This document shows positions 5,767 to 14,571 of a stretch of 36,571 nt of DNA, in pieces. The DNA is from Ignavibacteriales bacterium (lineage in GTDB: Bacteria > Bacteroidota > Ignavibacteria > UBA10030), in contig JACPSI010000059.1 of NCBI GenBank assembly GCA_016193365.1, positions 1 to 36,571 on the forward strand, written 5' to 3'. How positions within the stretch are numbered: position 1 is the first letter of the stretch; each line of letters starts with the position of its first letter. Under the pieces are notes generated by a model. That model was not told where the DNA came from, did not search any database, and worked only from the letters and a program-made list of their open reading frames with translations. Made by a program: the position numbers and the translations under genes.

Positions 5767-6897
5767 ATGAAGCAACGTCTCGTTTTCATCGATCTCCTCC
5801 GCGGCTGGGCAACGGTTGTCATGATCGAAGTGCATGTCTTTAATGCATTCATCATCCCCTCCTACAAAGAGACATCGTGGTACGATGTCCTGAATTACGT
5901 AAACGGTTTGGTCGCTCCAAGTTTCATTTTTATTGCCGGATTCATCTTCCTTGTTTCCAGTCAGAGAAAGCTCGAAGAGTTCAGACAGTACGGCTCAGCT
6001 TTTTGGAAACAACTGCGTCGGATCGGGCTCATCTGGGGGATTGGCTATGTCCTGCACCTCCCGTTTTTTTCGTTTCGCCGCACACTTTATGAATCAACTC
6101 AGGTCGAGTGGCTGAAATTCTTTCAATCGGACGTCCTTCATTGCATCGCTTTAGGGTTGCTTATTCTTTTTATCGCCCGACTCATCATACAGTCTAATAG
6201 AACGTATCGAACATTCCTTCTCAGTCTCGGCTTGTTCATTATTTGCGTGGCTCCGTTTGTTTGGGACCTTGACGTTTACGGATTTTTCCCGGCGCCTATC
6301 GCCGCGTACGTCAGCGGCGAGCGTTATTCTCAGTTTCCAATATTCCCCTGGCTCGGTTTTATGATGTTTGGCGGTTATTGCGCACAAAAATTCCTCGAGG
6401 CCAGGCAATCAGAAAGAGACAAGAGATTCATGAAAAACTTCGCCGTCACGGGGTTCCTCTGTGCGATTGGCGGTGCGGTGGCCATGGAAATACCGTTTTT
6501 TGTTCCGTTTGCATCGGCCGACGTCCGAGCGAATACTTTCTTCTTTATCGAGAGGCTTGGCATAGTGTTCGTTCTCCTCTCCCTCTGCTGGCGGTACGTC
6601 GAAAATCGGAAAACAGAAAAATCGTTTGTCCTCGACGTCAGCCGTGAATCTCTGTTCGTCTATGCCGCCCACCTTCTCGTCATCTATGGCATGTTCTTTC
6701 GTGACAGAAGCCTTTCCTTCATCTTCGGCGGGACGCTTCAGGTGGTCGAGTGCATTCTCGCGACCGTCGGACTTATCGTCGTCATGATTATCTCTGCGAA
6801 ATTGTGGGGATGGCTTAAACGCCAGCATGTTCCTCTTGCCCGCGGTATTTCATTCGCTACTGTTTTTCTGTTTTCGTACCTTTACTTCACCCGCTAA
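5767..6897 (+). CDS. DUF1624 / HGSNAT-like membrane acyltransferase
   Basis: 376 residues from ATG 5767 (a TTG lies one codon upstream). A multi-pass membrane protein with roughly ten hydrophobic segments. The N-terminus RLVFIDLLRGWATVVMIEVH is typical of the DUF1624/heparan-alpha-glucosaminide N-acetyltransferase catalytic family, as is the following GLVAPSFIFIAGF segment. Related proteins move acyl groups across membranes onto sugars, but the substrate here cannot be deduced. The stop codon shares one base with the rmuC start (taATG), indicating an operon. A general acyltransferase-3 member is the main alternative. Confidence 0.75.
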   Translation: MKQRLVFIDLLRGWATVVMIEVHVFNAFIIPSYKETSWYDVLNYVNGLVAPSFIFIAGFIFLVSSQRKLEEFRQYGSAFWKQLRRIGLIWGIGYVLHLPFFSFRRTLYESTQVEWLKFFQSDVLHCIALGLLILFIARLIIQSNRTYRTFLLSLGLFIICVAPFVWDLDVYGFFPAPIAAYVSGERYSQFPIFPWLGFMMFGGYCAQKFLEARQSERDKRFMKNFAVTGFLCAIGGAVAMEIPFFVPFASADVRANTFFFIERLGIVFVLLSLCWRYVENRKTEKSFVLDVSRESLFVYAAHLLVIYGMFFRDRSLSFIFGGTLQVVECILATVGLIVVMIISAKLWGWLKRQHVPLARGISFATVFLFSYLYFTR

Positions 6898-7961
6898 TGG
6901 AGACTCTCACTGTCATACTCCTTGTTGTCGTTGCAGCCCTACTCGTGTTGTTCCTCTTGAGACAGTCGGGGGCAAAAGTTTCAGATCCGATTCAGTCGAA
7001 TATCCTGTTCCAGCAACAAATGGAGGCGCTCCGGTCAGAGTTGACGCAGGGACTCCGAAGCCAGGAAGAGCGAATATCGCAAAGTCTCAGTTTAGTTACG
7101 AACCAAACCGGTCAGGTCGGCACGAGGCTGGACACTGCGGCGAAGGTCATTCAGGATGTCCAGAACAAACTCGGCGAGTTGGGAAAGGCCACCCAGGAAA
7201 TCAAAGAACTGGGGCAGAGTGTTTCGACATTGGAAGAGATGCTCAAAGCGCCAAAATTCCGCGGCGGCCTGGGGGAATTGCTGCTTGAGGATTTGCTGAA
7301 ACAGGTATTACCGAACGGTTCGTTTGAAACGCAATATCGATTCAAGAAGGGCCATACTGTTGACGCTGTGATCCACACGGCGGGGAATCACATTGTTCCT
7401 ATCGACTCGAAATTTCCGCTGGAAAATTTTGAGAAAATGGTCAAGGCCACCTCCGACCAGGAGCGTAGAACAGCCACGTTAACATTCAGGAAAGACGTCA
7501 AAAAGCATATTGATTCGATAGCGGAAAAATATATCCTTCCGGATGAAGGCACATTCGATTTCTCCCTGATGTATATCCCTGCGGAGAATATTTACTATGA
7601 AACTATCATCAAAGACGAGAAGCTGGCCGAAGAGGATGGCCTCTACGCCTATGCAGTTCAAAAGCATGTTGTTCCTGTCTCTCCGAACAGTTTCTACGCT
7701 TATTTGAGCGTGATTGCTCTTGGTTTTAAAGGATTGCAGATCGAAGAGCGTGCAAAAGAGATCTCGCAAAACCTGGCGCGGCTCAACTCCGAACTGTTGA
7801 AGTTTGCAGAGGTCTTCGAAACGCTCGGCAACCACATCAAAAACACCTCCAATAAATATGACGAGGCAGACAAGAAACTTGCCTCGTTTACCGACAAATT
7901 GAAAGGCATCCAGGCGCCGGAAGCACCAGAGCCGAAACAGCTGGATGTGTTCGGCAACTGA
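6897..7961 (+). CDS. rmuC: DNA recombination protein RmuC
   Basis: 354 residues. An N-terminal transmembrane helix (about 4-22) is followed by a coiled-coil region (about 35-115). The RmuC domain then carries RGGLGELLLEDLL, VDAVIH, VPIDSKFPLENF and YIPAENIYYE. RmuC-family proteins carry a PD-(D/E)XK-like nuclease fold and limit inverted-repeat-dependent rearrangements in E. coli. The predicted location is membrane-anchored with the catalytic part in the cytoplasm. The start overlaps the previous stop by one base. Confidence 0.92.
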   Translation: METLTVILLVVVAALLVLFLLRQSGAKVSDPIQSNILFQQQMEALRSELTQGLRSQEERISQSLSLVTNQTGQVGTRLDTAAKVIQDVQNKLGELGKATQEIKELGQSVSTLEEMLKAPKFRGGLGELLLEDLLKQVLPNGSFETQYRFKKGHTVDAVIHTAGNHIVPIDSKFPLENFEKMVKATSDQERRTATLTFRKDVKKHIDSIAEKYILPDEGTFDFSLMYIPAENIYYETIIKDEKLAEEDGLYAYAVQKHVVPVSPNSFYAYLSVIALGFKGLQIEERAKEISQNLARLNSELLKFAEVFETLGNHIKNTSNKYDEADKKLASFTDKLKGIQAPEAPEPKQLDVFGN

Positions 7962-8073: not shown

Positions 8074-8841
8074 ATGTCCCATGAAGCTTCAGCGGAACCC
8101 ACAGGAATGCAATGGAAGTGGGTGATTCTGGGAGTTGTCGCAGGCTTGGCAATTGTGGGGGCTTCGTATTTTATCGTAGCACCGACATTTCACAGTGACG
8201 AGATTCAGGCGGTGGTCATGTTGGTCGGTTATGCTGTGACGGGCGTGATCGTCGGCTATTTTTCGCCGGGCGTTACCATCAAAGAAGCGACGGTTGCCGG
8301 CTTTCTCGTTTTTATCTTCATGCTCGTCCTGTTGTATGCAACGGGAGCGGAGCTCATCGAAAACCAATCGATCAACCTCCTCCTGCTTCTCCTCGGTGTT
8401 TCTATTTCCTGGGTTGGTGGATGGGTTGGCGAGAAACTTCAGGGTTCACATGGGGACGCGGCTCACCACACAGGTTTTCAATGGAAATGGGTCCTTACCG
8501 GGGTGGTGCTCGGCTTTGCCCTTAATATCCTTTTTGTCTTTTTGCTTGCGCCCGCGTTCAAAATCGACTTGAATGTAGTCCTTGCGGCGTTTATCGCCAG
8601 CTTTGTCGCAACGGGATTTATTGTGGGTTACAAATCGCCCGGAGTAACGTTGAAAGAGCCAGCGGTAGCCGGATTGTTTGCCGTAGCTGTTGATTGGTTA
8701 TTCATAGAATTCGGCATCACACTTTCCGTCCCAAGCAAATATCTTGTCGCAGGCCTCGCGATCGGATTTCTCTTCTCGCTTTTTGGCGCGTGGCTTGGTG
8801 AGAAATATCAGGAATCAGTTCAAAGCAAAGCAGTCACTTAA
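8074..8841 (+). CDS. Integral membrane protein made of two tandem 113-residue repeats
   Basis: 255 residues from ATG 8074, which has an AAGGAG ribosome-binding site; the frame is open further upstream without supporting sequence. I recognise no named family. Residues 11-123 and 134-246 are clear repeats of equal length, with the same landmarks at a fixed 123-residue offset: G(M/F)QWKWV at the start, GYxSPGVT(I/L)KE in the middle, GxWxGEK(L/Y)Q at the end. Each half has about four hydrophobic helices, so about eight in total. The short linker SHGDAAHH is histidine-rich. Function is unknown. A terminator follows directly, and pfkA has its own promoter, so it is probably transcribed apart from pfkA. 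Confidence 0.8.
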   Translation: MSHEASAEPTGMQWKWVILGVVAGLAIVGASYFIVAPTFHSDEIQAVVMLVGYAVTGVIVGYFSPGVTIKEATVAGFLVFIFMLVLLYATGAELIENQSINLLLLLLGVSISWVGGWVGEKLQGSHGDAAHHTGFQWKWVLTGVVLGFALNILFVFLLAPAFKIDLNVVLAAFIASFVATGFIVGYKSPGVTLKEPAVAGLFAVAVDWLFIEFGITLSVPSKYLVAGLAIGFLFSLFGAWLGEKYQESVQSKAVT

Positions 8842-8864
8842 ACTCTGGAACAATCGAATTTTTC

Positions 8865-8897
8865 AAAAAGCCTCTTCCAATTCTGGAGAGGCTTTTT
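8865..8897 (+). terminator. Rho-independent terminator after the duplicated membrane protein
   Basis: Stem AAAAAGCCTCT (8865-8875) pairs with AGAGGCTTTTT (8887-8897), ending in a T-run. It lies 24 bases after the stop codon. Confidence 0.85.
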
Positions 8898-8932
8898 GTT
8901 GTACGAGAGTAATCTGACAGGTCTCAGATGAA

Positions 8933-9050: not shown

Positions 9051-10133
9051 ATGAAAAGGATTGGAATTCTCACTGGAGGTGGCGATTGTCCTGGCCTGAA
9101 CGCCGTTATTCGAAGTATCGCAAAGCCCGCTTTAACGTATTTTGGATCGACGGTCGTCGGCATTGAAGATGGCTTTGAGGGGCTCGTGGAAGGAAAGATG
9201 CACGAGCTCACGCCGAGAGATGTGGGGGGGATACTCAATGTGGGCGGGACAATTCTCGGGACGTCGAACAAGGGCAATCCCTTCAAGTATCCTATTGAAA
9301 CCCCCAACGGTGTCGATGTCGTTGATTATTCCGAAAATGCAATTCGAAACTATCGGGACTGGAAGCTCGATGTTATCGTTGCTATTGGCGGCGATGGGAC
9401 AATGCATATCGTCGATAAATTCACCGAGTTGGGGCTTAATTTCGTTGGCGTGCCAAAGACGATCGACAACGACCTTTCCTCGACAGACATGACGTTCGGT
9501 TATGATTCCGCCGTGAGCGTCGCGTCGGAAGCAATTGACCGGCTTCATACAACAGCTTCCGCGCATCATCGGGTGATGATTGTCGAGGTGATGGGTCGTT
9601 ATGCAGGATGGATAGCCCTTGGCGCCGGACTTGCGGGGGGAGCTGATGCAATCCTCATCCCGGAGATTCCTTTTGAGTGGAAAAAAATCAATGAGCATGT
9701 ACTGCGCAGGAGCAAGCAAGGATCGCGGTTCAGCATTGTCTGCGTTGCCGAAGGCGCAAAACCGGCGGAAGGCGGCCTCGTGGTAAAAGAGCAGGACAAA
9801 AAACGCACCGACCCCATCAGGCTGGGCGGCATTGGTGAGCTTGTTGGAAAAAATATCACAGAATCGACGGGGCTCGAGACGCGGGTTGTTGTCCTCGGCC
9901 ATGTTCAACGGGGTGGGAGTCCGACTCCGTTCGACCGAATTCTTGCGACGAAATACGGTTCCATGGCCCTTCAGTTGGCGTCGGAAAAGAAATTCGGTTA
10001 TATGGTCGCCTTGCGCGGCAACGACGTGATGGCAGTTCCAGTCAAGGAAGCGATTCTCAAACTTCGCACTGTCCCCTTAGATTCTCAGTTGATTCTCGCT
10101 GCCCGTGCAGTAGGCACATCGTTTGGAGATTGA
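9051..10133 (+). CDS. pfkA: 6-phosphofructokinase, mixed-substrate (group III) type
   Basis: 360 residues with a GGGAGG ribosome-binding site 9 bases before the ATG. It phosphorylates fructose 6-phosphate to the 1,6-bisphosphate. The N-terminal GILTGGGDCPGLNAVIR and the catalytic TIDND (Asp139) are intact, as are the MGRYAGW substrate-binding motif and VLGHVQRGG. The phosphoryl-donor positions are mixed. GGDGT gives Gly116 (equivalent to E. coli Gly104, the ATP form). PKTIDND gives Lys136 (equivalent to E. coli Gly124, the PPi-like form). This G/K combination is known in group III enzymes, where ATP use is reported, so ATP is the likely donor but is not proven here. The next gene starts 3 bases after the stop. 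Confidence 0.93.
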   Translation: MKRIGILTGGGDCPGLNAVIRSIAKPALTYFGSTVVGIEDGFEGLVEGKMHELTPRDVGGILNVGGTILGTSNKGNPFKYPIETPNGVDVVDYSENAIRNYRDWKLDVIVAIGGDGTMHIVDKFTELGLNFVGVPKTIDNDLSSTDMTFGYDSAVSVASEAIDRLHTTASAHHRVMIVEVMGRYAGWIALGAGLAGGADAILIPEIPFEWKKINEHVLRRSKQGSRFSIVCVAEGAKPAEGGLVVKEQDKKRTDPIRLGGIGELVGKNITESTGLETRVVVLGHVQRGGSPTPFDRILATKYGSMALQLASEKKFGYMVALRGNDVMAVPVKEAILKLRTVPLDSQLILAARAVGTSFGD

Positions 10134-12716: not shown

Positions 12717-13133
12717 ATGGACGAGCGTTTTCGCATTCTGGAACATCCGGCAGACGTCGGCATCGAAGCGTACGGAGAAACGCTGCAGGAGCTGTTTGAG
12801 AATTCTGCCGCAGGGCTCATCTCGATTATTGCCGGTTCTTCCGAAATCCACTCCGGCCAACGACTTCATGTTTCCATCGAGTCTACTGACGTTGAGCATC
12901 TGCTCGTCCGTTGGTTGAGCGAAATTCTCTATCTTTCCGATGCCGAACGATTTCTCTTTGCGCGTGCCGATTTTGAGCGAATCTCTGAAACCTCACTCAA
13001 CGGATTTCTTTTCGGCGAGCGATATAACCCCGCAAAACATGAGCTGCAAATGACCGTCAAAGCAGTGACATACCATCAGCTGAAAGTTCAGCGACAAGGT
13101 ACGTGGTCAGCCACAGTATTTTTTGATGTTTGA
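12717..13133 (+). CDS. Archease, cofactor of RNA ligase RtcB
   Basis: 138 residues. The N-terminus ILEHPADVGIEAYG is the archease signature, with Asp12 as metal ligand. The C-terminus ends FFDV with the second conserved aspartate at 137. LLVRWLSEILYL is also typical. Archease speeds RtcB guanylylation and multiple turnover. Its last codons overlap the start of rtcB, so the two are translationally coupled, as often seen for this pair. Confidence 0.93.
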   Translation: MDERFRILEHPADVGIEAYGETLQELFENSAAGLISIIAGSSEIHSGQRLHVSIESTDVEHLLVRWLSEILYLSDAERFLFARADFERISETSLNGFLFGERYNPAKHELQMTVKAVTYHQLKVQRQGTWSATVFFDV

Positions 13134-14571
13134 TCACCGCATGTCAGTCCTGCAAAAACTCGACGATTACAGGTACGTGGTTCCGAAATCCTTCCGTCCT
13201 GGAATGAAGATCGAAGGTCTCATTTATGCCAACGACGAACTGATCAAACAAATTGAAAAAGATCAGACACTCGAGCAAGTTGCCAATGTTGCCACGTTGC
13301 CGGGCCTCGTCGGACGTTCGCTTGCAATGCCGGATGCACACCAGGGGTACGGTTTTGCTATTGGCGGCGTTGCCGCTGCTGACCTCGAAAAAGGAATTAT
13401 CTCGGCGGGAGGCGTCGGCTTCGACATTAATTGCGGTGTGAGGTTACTTGCCTCTGAATTGAGCCTCGAAGAAGTAGAACCGGACATAGATCAACTGCTC
13501 AACCAGATGTTTCGCGATATCCCGTGCGGAACAGGAAAAGCCGGAATTGTGGGCCTGACGTTCGACCAATTAGACGATGTTCTGGAAAACGGGGCTGAGT
13601 GGGCGGTCAGGAACGGATATGGAACCGAAGAGGATCTGCATCATATCGAAGAAACGGGAACGATGCCCAAGGCAGACCCGGCCATGGTGAGCGAGCGTGC
13701 CAAAAAGCGCGGGCGTGACCAGCTGGGGACTTTGGGTTCGGGAAATCATTTTGCCGAGGTGCAATACGTCTCGGAAGTTTTCGACGAGACAGCGGCACGA
13801 GCATTCGGTGTGCGTCAAAACCAAATTGTGGTGATGATCCACAGCGGCTCGCGCGGACTGGGCCATCAGGTCTGCACAGATTATCTTGAAGTGATGCAAA
13901 CGGCGATGCCGAAATATGGCATTAGTATCGTTGACCGCCAGCTCGCGTGCGTTCCCATCAAATCGATGGAAGGCAAGAGTTATTTGGGCGCAATGGCGTC
14001 GGCGGCCAATTTCGCGTTTGCCAACCGGCAGATGATGAGCCACTGGACCAGACAGGCGTTTGCCAGCGTCCTCGGGAACGGAACCCTCAAACTCGTGTAC
14101 GATGTTTGTCATAATATAGCGAAAGAGGAAGTCCACACTGTCAACGGCTCAATGAAGAAAGTGCTTGTTCACCGAAAAGGAGCAACACGCGCTTACCCGA
14201 AGCATCGGCCGGAGGTGCCGCCGGATTACGGTGAAATTGGCCAGCCTGTGTTGATTCCTGGAAGCATGGGTACATGCTCGTACGTTCTCGTTGGGACAGC
14301 GAAAGCGATGGAAGAGACCTTTGGGTCGTCATGCCATGGTGCAGGAAGAGCTATGAGCCGTCATGCGGCGAAAAAATCGACAACGGCAGAACAGCTCATT
14401 CAACAACTGAAAGAGAAGGGGATCCATGTGAGAGGAGCAAGCAAGAGCGGCTTGACCGAGGAAAAACCCGACGCGTACAAAGATGTTAGCCTCGTCGTCG
14501 AAGTTGTCCACCAGGCTGGGATTGCAAAAAAAGTTGCGAAGATGATTCCTATCGGTGTCATCAAAGGCTAA
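13126..14571 (+). CDS. rtcB: RNA-splicing/repair ligase RtcB
   Basis: 481 residues from ATG 13126; ATG 13141 (MSVLQKLDDYRY) is an equally good start. RtcB joins 2',3'-cyclic-phosphate or 3'-phosphate RNA ends to 5'-OH ends using GTP and manganese. Metal and active-site residues are present: Asp100 and Cys103 in GGVGFDINCGVRL, His208 in GSGNHFAEV, His239 in IHSGSRGLGH, His329 in VCHNIAKEE. The nucleotidyl-accepting histidine is in SCHGAGRAMSR (His404 in this numbering). It overlaps archease by 8 bases. No RtcA or RtcR homologue is nearby, so the sigma-54 regulation known in E. coli is not indicated. Confidence 0.96.
   Translation: MFDHRMSVLQKLDDYRYVVPKSFRPGMKIEGLIYANDELIKQIEKDQTLEQVANVATLPGLVGRSLAMPDAHQGYGFAIGGVAAADLEKGIISAGGVGFDINCGVRLLASELSLEEVEPDIDQLLNQMFRDIPCGTGKAGIVGLTFDQLDDVLENGAEWAVRNGYGTEEDLHHIEETGTMPKADPAMVSERAKKRGRDQLGTLGSGNHFAEVQYVSEVFDETAARAFGVRQNQIVVMIHSGSRGLGHQVCTDYLEVMQTAMPKYGISIVDRQLACVPIKSMEGKSYLGAMASAANFAFANRQMMSHWTRQAFASVLGNGTLKLVYDVCHNIAKEEVHTVNGSMKKVLVHRKGATRAYPKHRPEVPPDYGEIGQPVLIPGSMGTCSYVLVGTAKAMEETFGSSCHGAGRAMSRHAAKKSTTAEQLIQQLKEKGIHVRGASKSGLTEEKPDAYKDVSLVVEVVHQAGIAKKVAKMIPIGVIKG

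Follow-up and report, generated by a model that had tools for sequence, protein, structure and literature searches.

The SMR protein EmrE is a four-helix protein with a conserved, membrane-embedded glutamate in helix 1, and permeases of the FtsX/MacB/LolCDE type have an ATPase partner and an outer domain that separates helix 1 from helix 2. LucB of the mycobacterial Mce1 system (MSMEG_3032/Rv2536) is likewise a four-helix membrane unit, of about 140 residues; the preprint PMC9882608, in the sections drawn on here, describes a conserved LucB cleft, bounded by TM2 and TM4, in which the Mce1C linker sits, and reports orthologues in Actinomycetales that apparently occur only together with mce operons of the Mtb-like kind. 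A doubled membrane unit with single-unit relatives is an already known kind of protein, as in SemiSWEET, a single-unit form that stands beside the fused two-unit SWEET, the units being parallel (PMC7162841, in the portion used here). According to the same portion, SWEET and SemiSWEET have three-helix units, with a linker helix in SWEET, whereas the protein described below, here called the twin, has four-helix units and a short linker in its predicted structure. LucB differs from the twin in belonging to another phylum and in not being duplicated.

The twin is encoded in a 36,571-nucleotide stretch from an Ignavibacteriales bacterium (GenBank assembly GCA_016193365.1, contig JACPSI010000059.1, forward strand), hereafter the window. 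The gene occupies 8074..8841 on the plus strand and its translation is 255 aa plus stop. An AAGGAG-type ribosome site, read by eye on the same strand, lies just 5' of the ATG at 8074, and aligned relatives have a methionine at the equivalent place. Comparison with the nearest orthologue over 254 codons gave dN 0.066 and dS 1.32 (dN/dS about 0.05), indicating purifying selection. An rmuC-like gene (6897..7961, plus strand) ends 112 bases upstream and a 6-phosphofructokinase-like gene, pfkA (9051..10133, plus strand), begins 209 bases downstream, both named by eye. Between the twin gene and pfkA, a strong terminator-like hairpin with A- and T-rich arms was found at 8864..8898 on the plus strand (-20.7 kcal/mol, z -5.5 against 200 shuffles); it was absent from a simple terminator pattern scan, the likely reason being that its T run is part of the stem. 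Elsewhere in the window, at 12717-14571, adjoining archease-like and RtcB-like genes (names by eye) are presumably the familiar RNA-ligase pair.

The open reading frame, its coordinates and length, and the two-unit repeat described in the earlier note are all real, as confirmed by translation and alignment. Unit A comprises residues 11-125 (8104..8448, plus strand; predicted helices 14-39, 42-63, 68-90 and 98-122) and unit B residues 132-248 (8467..8817, plus strand; predicted helices 137-162, 166-187, 194-214 and 221-254). Aligned without gaps, two 113-residue stretches at offset 123 share 30 identities and score +100 with BLOSUM62; none of 20000 shuffles of the second copy (mean -87) reached this value (z 8.0), and 123 was the best of the offsets from 40 to 199. 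That the repeat aligns gapless at this fixed offset, as had been claimed, is true of QWKWV (residues 13 and 136) and GEK (119 and 242) but not of SPGVT (64 and 188), whose offset of 124 leaves it out of register in the ungapped alignment. When gaps were allowed the units scored 198, against a shuffled mean of 35.6 and a maximum of 61 in 2000 shuffles. V, L, I, G and A are abundant in both halves, and the repeat could be imagined as a by-product of hydrophobic composition with no duplication behind it; this is refuted by the gapped score, as the 2000 shuffles preserved composition, and is opposed by the identical motifs found at equivalent places in single-unit proteins and distant twins, leaving it a negligible probability. 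The earlier proposal that a four-helix unit was duplicated and fused is supported.

Single-repeat homologues, which the earlier note had suggested looking for, are present, and one lies within the window's own genome, where a second locus encodes a 138 aa single-unit protein that is 33% identical over the unit. The window protein found a match at E 0.001 in 30 of 61 genomes (its own and relatives up to the order). A profile of the unit matched at E 1e-5 in 25 of 395 genomes drawn from the phylum, six from the same family (own genome included), five from the rest of the order, nine from the rest of the class and five from another class. Within the family 26 of 32 genomes match, 20 with a twin gene, including G022, in which the twin is a fragment ending with its contig, and six with single-unit forms only. 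The two-unit form is also present in other families and in another class of the phylum. A pattern scan for close relatives in named genomes returned eight loci, named in their record titles as Ignavibacteria, Ignavibacteriales, Ignavibacteriae, Bacteroidota or Bacteroidetes and all from metagenome-assembled genomes. The window protein had no match in plasmids or phages, and none of the eight pattern matches between the twin alignment and viral contigs was confirmed. The alignments used below contain 28 close twins (window included; L021 is cut by its contig), 16 single-unit proteins, 58 units, and 12 of 14 distant twins, L119 and L121 being omitted as close copies of L120.

The duplication had been thought recent, a view contradicted by a unit tree, by topology tests and by the spread of twins over the phylum. 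At the DNA level units A and B are 41% identical, and 29% at third codon positions, values ill-suited to recent copying. The maximum-likelihood tree was calculated from 73 units (18 of the 28 close twins, 8 of the 14 distant twins, 19 single units and both units of L155) and has few columns for its rows, with long rows for L026_A, L026_B and L025_A. A branch supported at 87/87 (not starred) has all 26 first units on the same side, and the single units, together with L155, were set apart (100/98, starred). The second units did not form one group in the best tree, L025_B falling beside the single units, and a constraint uniting all 26 second units was not rejected (p-AU 0.47). Forcing the window's two units to be sisters was rejected (log-likelihood 137 lower, p-AU 1.8e-7). 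As the first units stand apart from the second and the sister constraint is rejected, the doubling of the twin had most likely taken place before the sampled families diverged. Locus L155:308-1393 (minus strand) encodes a 361-aa protein whose two units are both of the single-unit type and lie inside the starred single-unit clade; judged from these sequences it is a second, separate tandem doubling within that clade, the support for its units as each other's sisters being 33/67.

The earlier note recognised no family, and none described was found for the twin or its unit in Pfam, NCBIfam, PHROGs, PADLOC or PDB sequences at the sensitivities used; literature searches that looked for the family found no paper, weakly suggesting that it is undescribed. 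The NCBIfam scan covered the window protein and the partner genes, and the PADLOC and PHROGs scans covered the window protein together with L002; PADLOC gave one 17-residue match (E 0.03) and PHROGs two short ones (E 0.02 and 0.05). Among the 28 twins the only Pfam match over its cut-off was to T4SS_pilin (PF18895), a two-helix domain, in L004 (28.7 against 26.6 bits), and this assignment was rejected. T4SS_pilin matches at E up to 0.1 occurred in four of the 28 twins, those in L005, L007 and L011 falling below the cut-off (16.0, 19.2 and 19.2 bits respectively), and all four cross from the end of unit A into the start of unit B. DUF5518 (PF17647), also set aside, matched one twin of 28 at 16.4 bits against a cut-off of 27 bits, the match spanning one unit end to end. 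With the 16 single-unit proteins and 12 distant twins the best Pfam E values were 0.00028 (DUF7670, 21.7 against 29 bits) and 0.0039 (DUF6095, 17.8 against 23.8 bits). The unit profile matched an MbhD-type chain at E 0.12 and colicin B at E 0.65 among PDB sequences. MbhD (PF13244; membrane hydrogenase and Mrp antiporter subunits) carries a local look-alike of the motif, APDVAMTEAAIG, in the region that joins helices 2 and 3; when the unit was compared with MbhD/DUF4040, hhalign detected no relation, the probability being 1.2% with 25 sequences and 1.4% with six stand-alone ones against 0.5% for the reversed control. The 25 sequences came from the phylum; a further five, weaker and by eye resembling ND6, were excluded.

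Hydropathy and structure prediction support the earlier assignment of the protein to the membrane with four helices per unit. AlphaFold2, run on the 28-twin alignment, gave eight helices for the twin (mean pLDDT 82.5, pTM 0.78). On a second alignment, with the single-unit protein of the same genome as query, it predicted four long helices plus an additional short helix (pLDDT 86.9, pTM 0.78). The two models agree on the four-helix plan and show no linker helix of membrane length, the linker of the twin being short. The predicted topology of the twin is eight helices with both termini cytoplasmic. The putative cytoplasmic loops contain on average 10.6 K/R over 75 residues, against 1.1 over 24 residues in the other loops; the enrichment in D/E is weaker (10.7 against 2.3).

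Foldseek searches of the PDB gave nothing convincing, with best E values of 0.41 and 0.38 for the two models, and absence from these lists excludes nothing. LucB (8fed_K) was the top VIA-align match for both models, on unit B of the twin (Z 8.5, 3.7 A over 115 residues) and on the single unit (Z 9.9, 3.1 A over 119 of 141 residues), with 9-14% identity in the structural matches; on the calibration of this method a Z below about 13 may reflect a common arrangement of helical bundles, and LucB scores below that. LucB was not listed in profile searches of PDB sequences with the close-twin, single-unit and unit alignments. Next in the list for the twin came an FtsX domain; in that for the single unit LucB was followed by a designed bundle, a heme-exporter domain and other permease domains. 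Four-helix bundles of FtsX/MacB/LolCDE-type permeases matched the single unit at Z about 6-8, but neither an outer domain nor an ATPase partner of that type was seen for the twin.

Conservation was scored over 82 unit sequences, a well-conserved column being one at 70% or more. There are 18 such columns, 14 in the predicted cytoplasmic third and four that are mid-membrane glycines, with none in the outer third. The columns of Ser64, Glu71 and Gly119 round to 100%, that of Glu120 to 99%, and Gln123 is at 91%; the unit B residues S188 and E195 are invariant in the 28 twins. In the same 82 units no polar or charged mid-membrane column reaches 70%, Thr56 and Ser112 reaching 50-54%, and no acidic column reaches 50% in helix 1 or mid-membrane, so that the helix 1 glutamate of EmrE has no counterpart among the acidic columns of the unit at this level. 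The SPGVT(I/L)KE loop singled out in the earlier note is conserved and does sit between helices 2 and 3, as SPGVTIKE in unit A (residues 64-71, 8263..8286, plus strand) and SPGVTLKE in the corresponding turn of unit B (residues 188-195, 8635..8658, plus strand). GxWxGExxQ, evident from unit conservation, closes helix 4 in unit A (residues 115-123, 8416..8442, plus strand) and, from the translation and twin alignment, helix 8 in unit B (residues 238-246, 8785..8811, plus strand). In the twin model helix 3 starts at T68, with E71 three residues later, and this T68xxE71 spacing is that of a helix-capping box; part of the SPGVTxKE motif may therefore be structural. We infer that three motifs come together as one cluster at the cytoplasmic face of each unit: WKW, where helix 1 begins, GYxSxGxTxxE, in the turn from helix 2 to helix 3, and GxWxGExxQ, where helix 4 ends. 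A one-sided polar cluster, with no well-conserved polar position mid-membrane, would suit docking or a structural clasp better than a translocation path.

The surroundings of the twin gene appear to vary with the family, rmuC- and pfkA-like genes flanking it in the window's own. Among 27 two-unit loci (26 and the window), which include loci of another family and cut-short loci scored as misses, rmuC lies upstream on the same strand in 13 (45-358 bases) and pfkA downstream on the same strand in 16 (17-209 bases), the window counting in both. In other families the neighbours are uridine kinase, yidC and others (names by eye), and no neighbour was seen to recur across families in the 14 distant twin loci. 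The neighbourhood thus looks like family-specific housekeeping synteny and not a partnership.

Single-unit genes have other company. In 11 of 29 loci the single-unit-type gene stands third behind two genes for membrane proteins of about 210 and 257 aa (L040:4557-6381, on contig C113 of the window's own genome, L045, L051, L053, L054, L123, L124, L159, L161, L162 and L164; several of these share genera or a genome). The partner of about 257 aa has a C-terminal stretch of the 'QYxIxPxSxGGG' kind. Of the remaining loci, one has the first gene only, one the second gene only (at a contig end), two a lipoprotein-like gene and 14 none, three of these 14 being contigs or stretches of about 3 kb. The lipoprotein-like genes, L048:30-809 (plus strand) and L052:5200-6558 (minus strand), adjoin single-unit genes and share the C-terminal domain of the 257-aa partner, and the L048 product resembles TIGR03067 below cut-off. 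At L048:982-1758 (plus strand) two CxxC pairs accompany hydrophobic stretches in a segment, read by eye, that continues in frame into a single unit, perhaps a zinc-ribbon fusion to it. No scanned partner protein had a Pfam or NCBIfam match above cut-off, and the partner genes were absent from all 37 two-unit loci (up to 13.5 kb each).

The first partner gene is found in 28 of the 395 phylum genomes. In 12 distant first-gene loci (L169-L180) a gene of similar size comes next, matching the second-gene profile at E up to 1 in nine of the 12. This relative usually overlaps or touches the first gene, and in L169 and L177 the two-gene pair is itself tandemly repeated. No unit gene was found in these 12 loci, the sole unit match (L171, E 0.0034) falling within the first gene.

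Comparison of sequences demonstrates that the units are homologous and that single-unit cousins exist, as well as the relative age of the duplication and the conserved motifs; the pattern of conservation and the gene set of the single-unit form are established too. Beyond these, we tentatively favour, over a transporter, a fused-dimer membrane scaffold or accessory subunit. The twin would be an inner-membrane protein, a covalently fused pair of parallel four-helix units, with a non-catalytic role as scaffold or accessory subunit in which its cytoplasmic face docks membrane partners. Its single-unit cousins would play an equivalent role as homodimers or as a subunit of the two-protein membrane module, and the fused form would hold two docking sites in fixed geometry; both the docking and the equivalence of a single-unit dimer to the twin are what we infer. 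In its favour are the placing of the well-conserved columns, the charged residues of the putative cytoplasmic loops and the four-helix plan common to both models. That the single-unit gene comes third in 11 of the 29 loci suggests a subunit role, the occurrence of the first partner gene with no unit gene in the 12 distant loci fits an accessory one, and a second tandem inside the single-unit clade is expected if units pair. Against a scaffold, twin neighbours resemble housekeeping genes and differ between families, the partner genes of the single-unit form are missing from the 37 two-unit loci, 14 of the 29 single-unit-type loci have neither partner gene, several of the 11 with both share genera or a genome, and the T68xxE71 spacing may make part of the motif structural. 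Alternatively, the protein may be a transporter or channel for small solutes or ions, with its two four-helix units arranged around a pseudo-twofold axis and enclosing a path there, in the manner of SemiSWEET dimers and SWEET. A tandem beside single-unit paralogues is the known SemiSWEET/SWEET pattern (PMC7162841, in the portion used here), each unit has a near-invariant Ser, Thr and Glu, and EmrE was third in the Foldseek list for the single unit (probability 0.66, E 0.52, TM-score 0.35/0.42). A transporter nonetheless appears rather unlikely, as the mid-membrane has no charged or polar column at 70% or more, the conserved polar positions lie at one face, no transporter family scored above its cut-off, and single-unit genes accompany two membrane proteins in the 11 loci listed.

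The conserved motifs might instead be a structural clasp only, combining a capping box with the packing of helices 1, 3 and 4, the function residing in the variable outer part or in the bilayer. The T68-E71 spacing and the glycine columns, which suit packing, are as such a clasp would have them, but in our judgement the near-complete conservation of Ser64 and Glu71, and that of Gln123, is stricter than capping usually demands, and the outer third lacks any column at 70% or more; we regard this explanation as improbable. Finally, the twin could work as LucB does, gripping an Mce membrane helix and linker in an envelope lipid-transport complex. LucB headed both VIA-align lists, and its TM2/TM4 cleft holds the Mce1C linker (PMC9882608, in the sections drawn on here). 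The same sections report its orthologues in Actinomycetales, apparently only where an Mtb-like mce operon is present, the Z scores may reflect a common helical-bundle arrangement, identity is 9-14%, and LucB was not listed in the profile searches. The window's genome (G000, rated 97% complete) has no match to PF02470 (MlaD/Mce) at E 0.001, whereas 4 of 14 control genomes do, Escherichia coli and Bacteroides among them, and this absence weakens a LucB-like role, which we consider very unlikely.

Under the favoured reading as a scaffold or accessory subunit, the twin would belong to a family of dimeric four-helix docking units scattered through the phylum, fused once anciently and again later in a second lineage, and separately recruited as third subunit of an undescribed two-protein membrane module; this whole history is possible, though on the doubtful side. 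The family marks a conserved, unnamed bacterial gene set. Single and doubled forms occur in one genome, doubling apparently took place on two or more occasions, and the near-invariant residues are a small set that can be tested. Together these features make the family a clean system in which to ask why fusion of a dimer is favoured.
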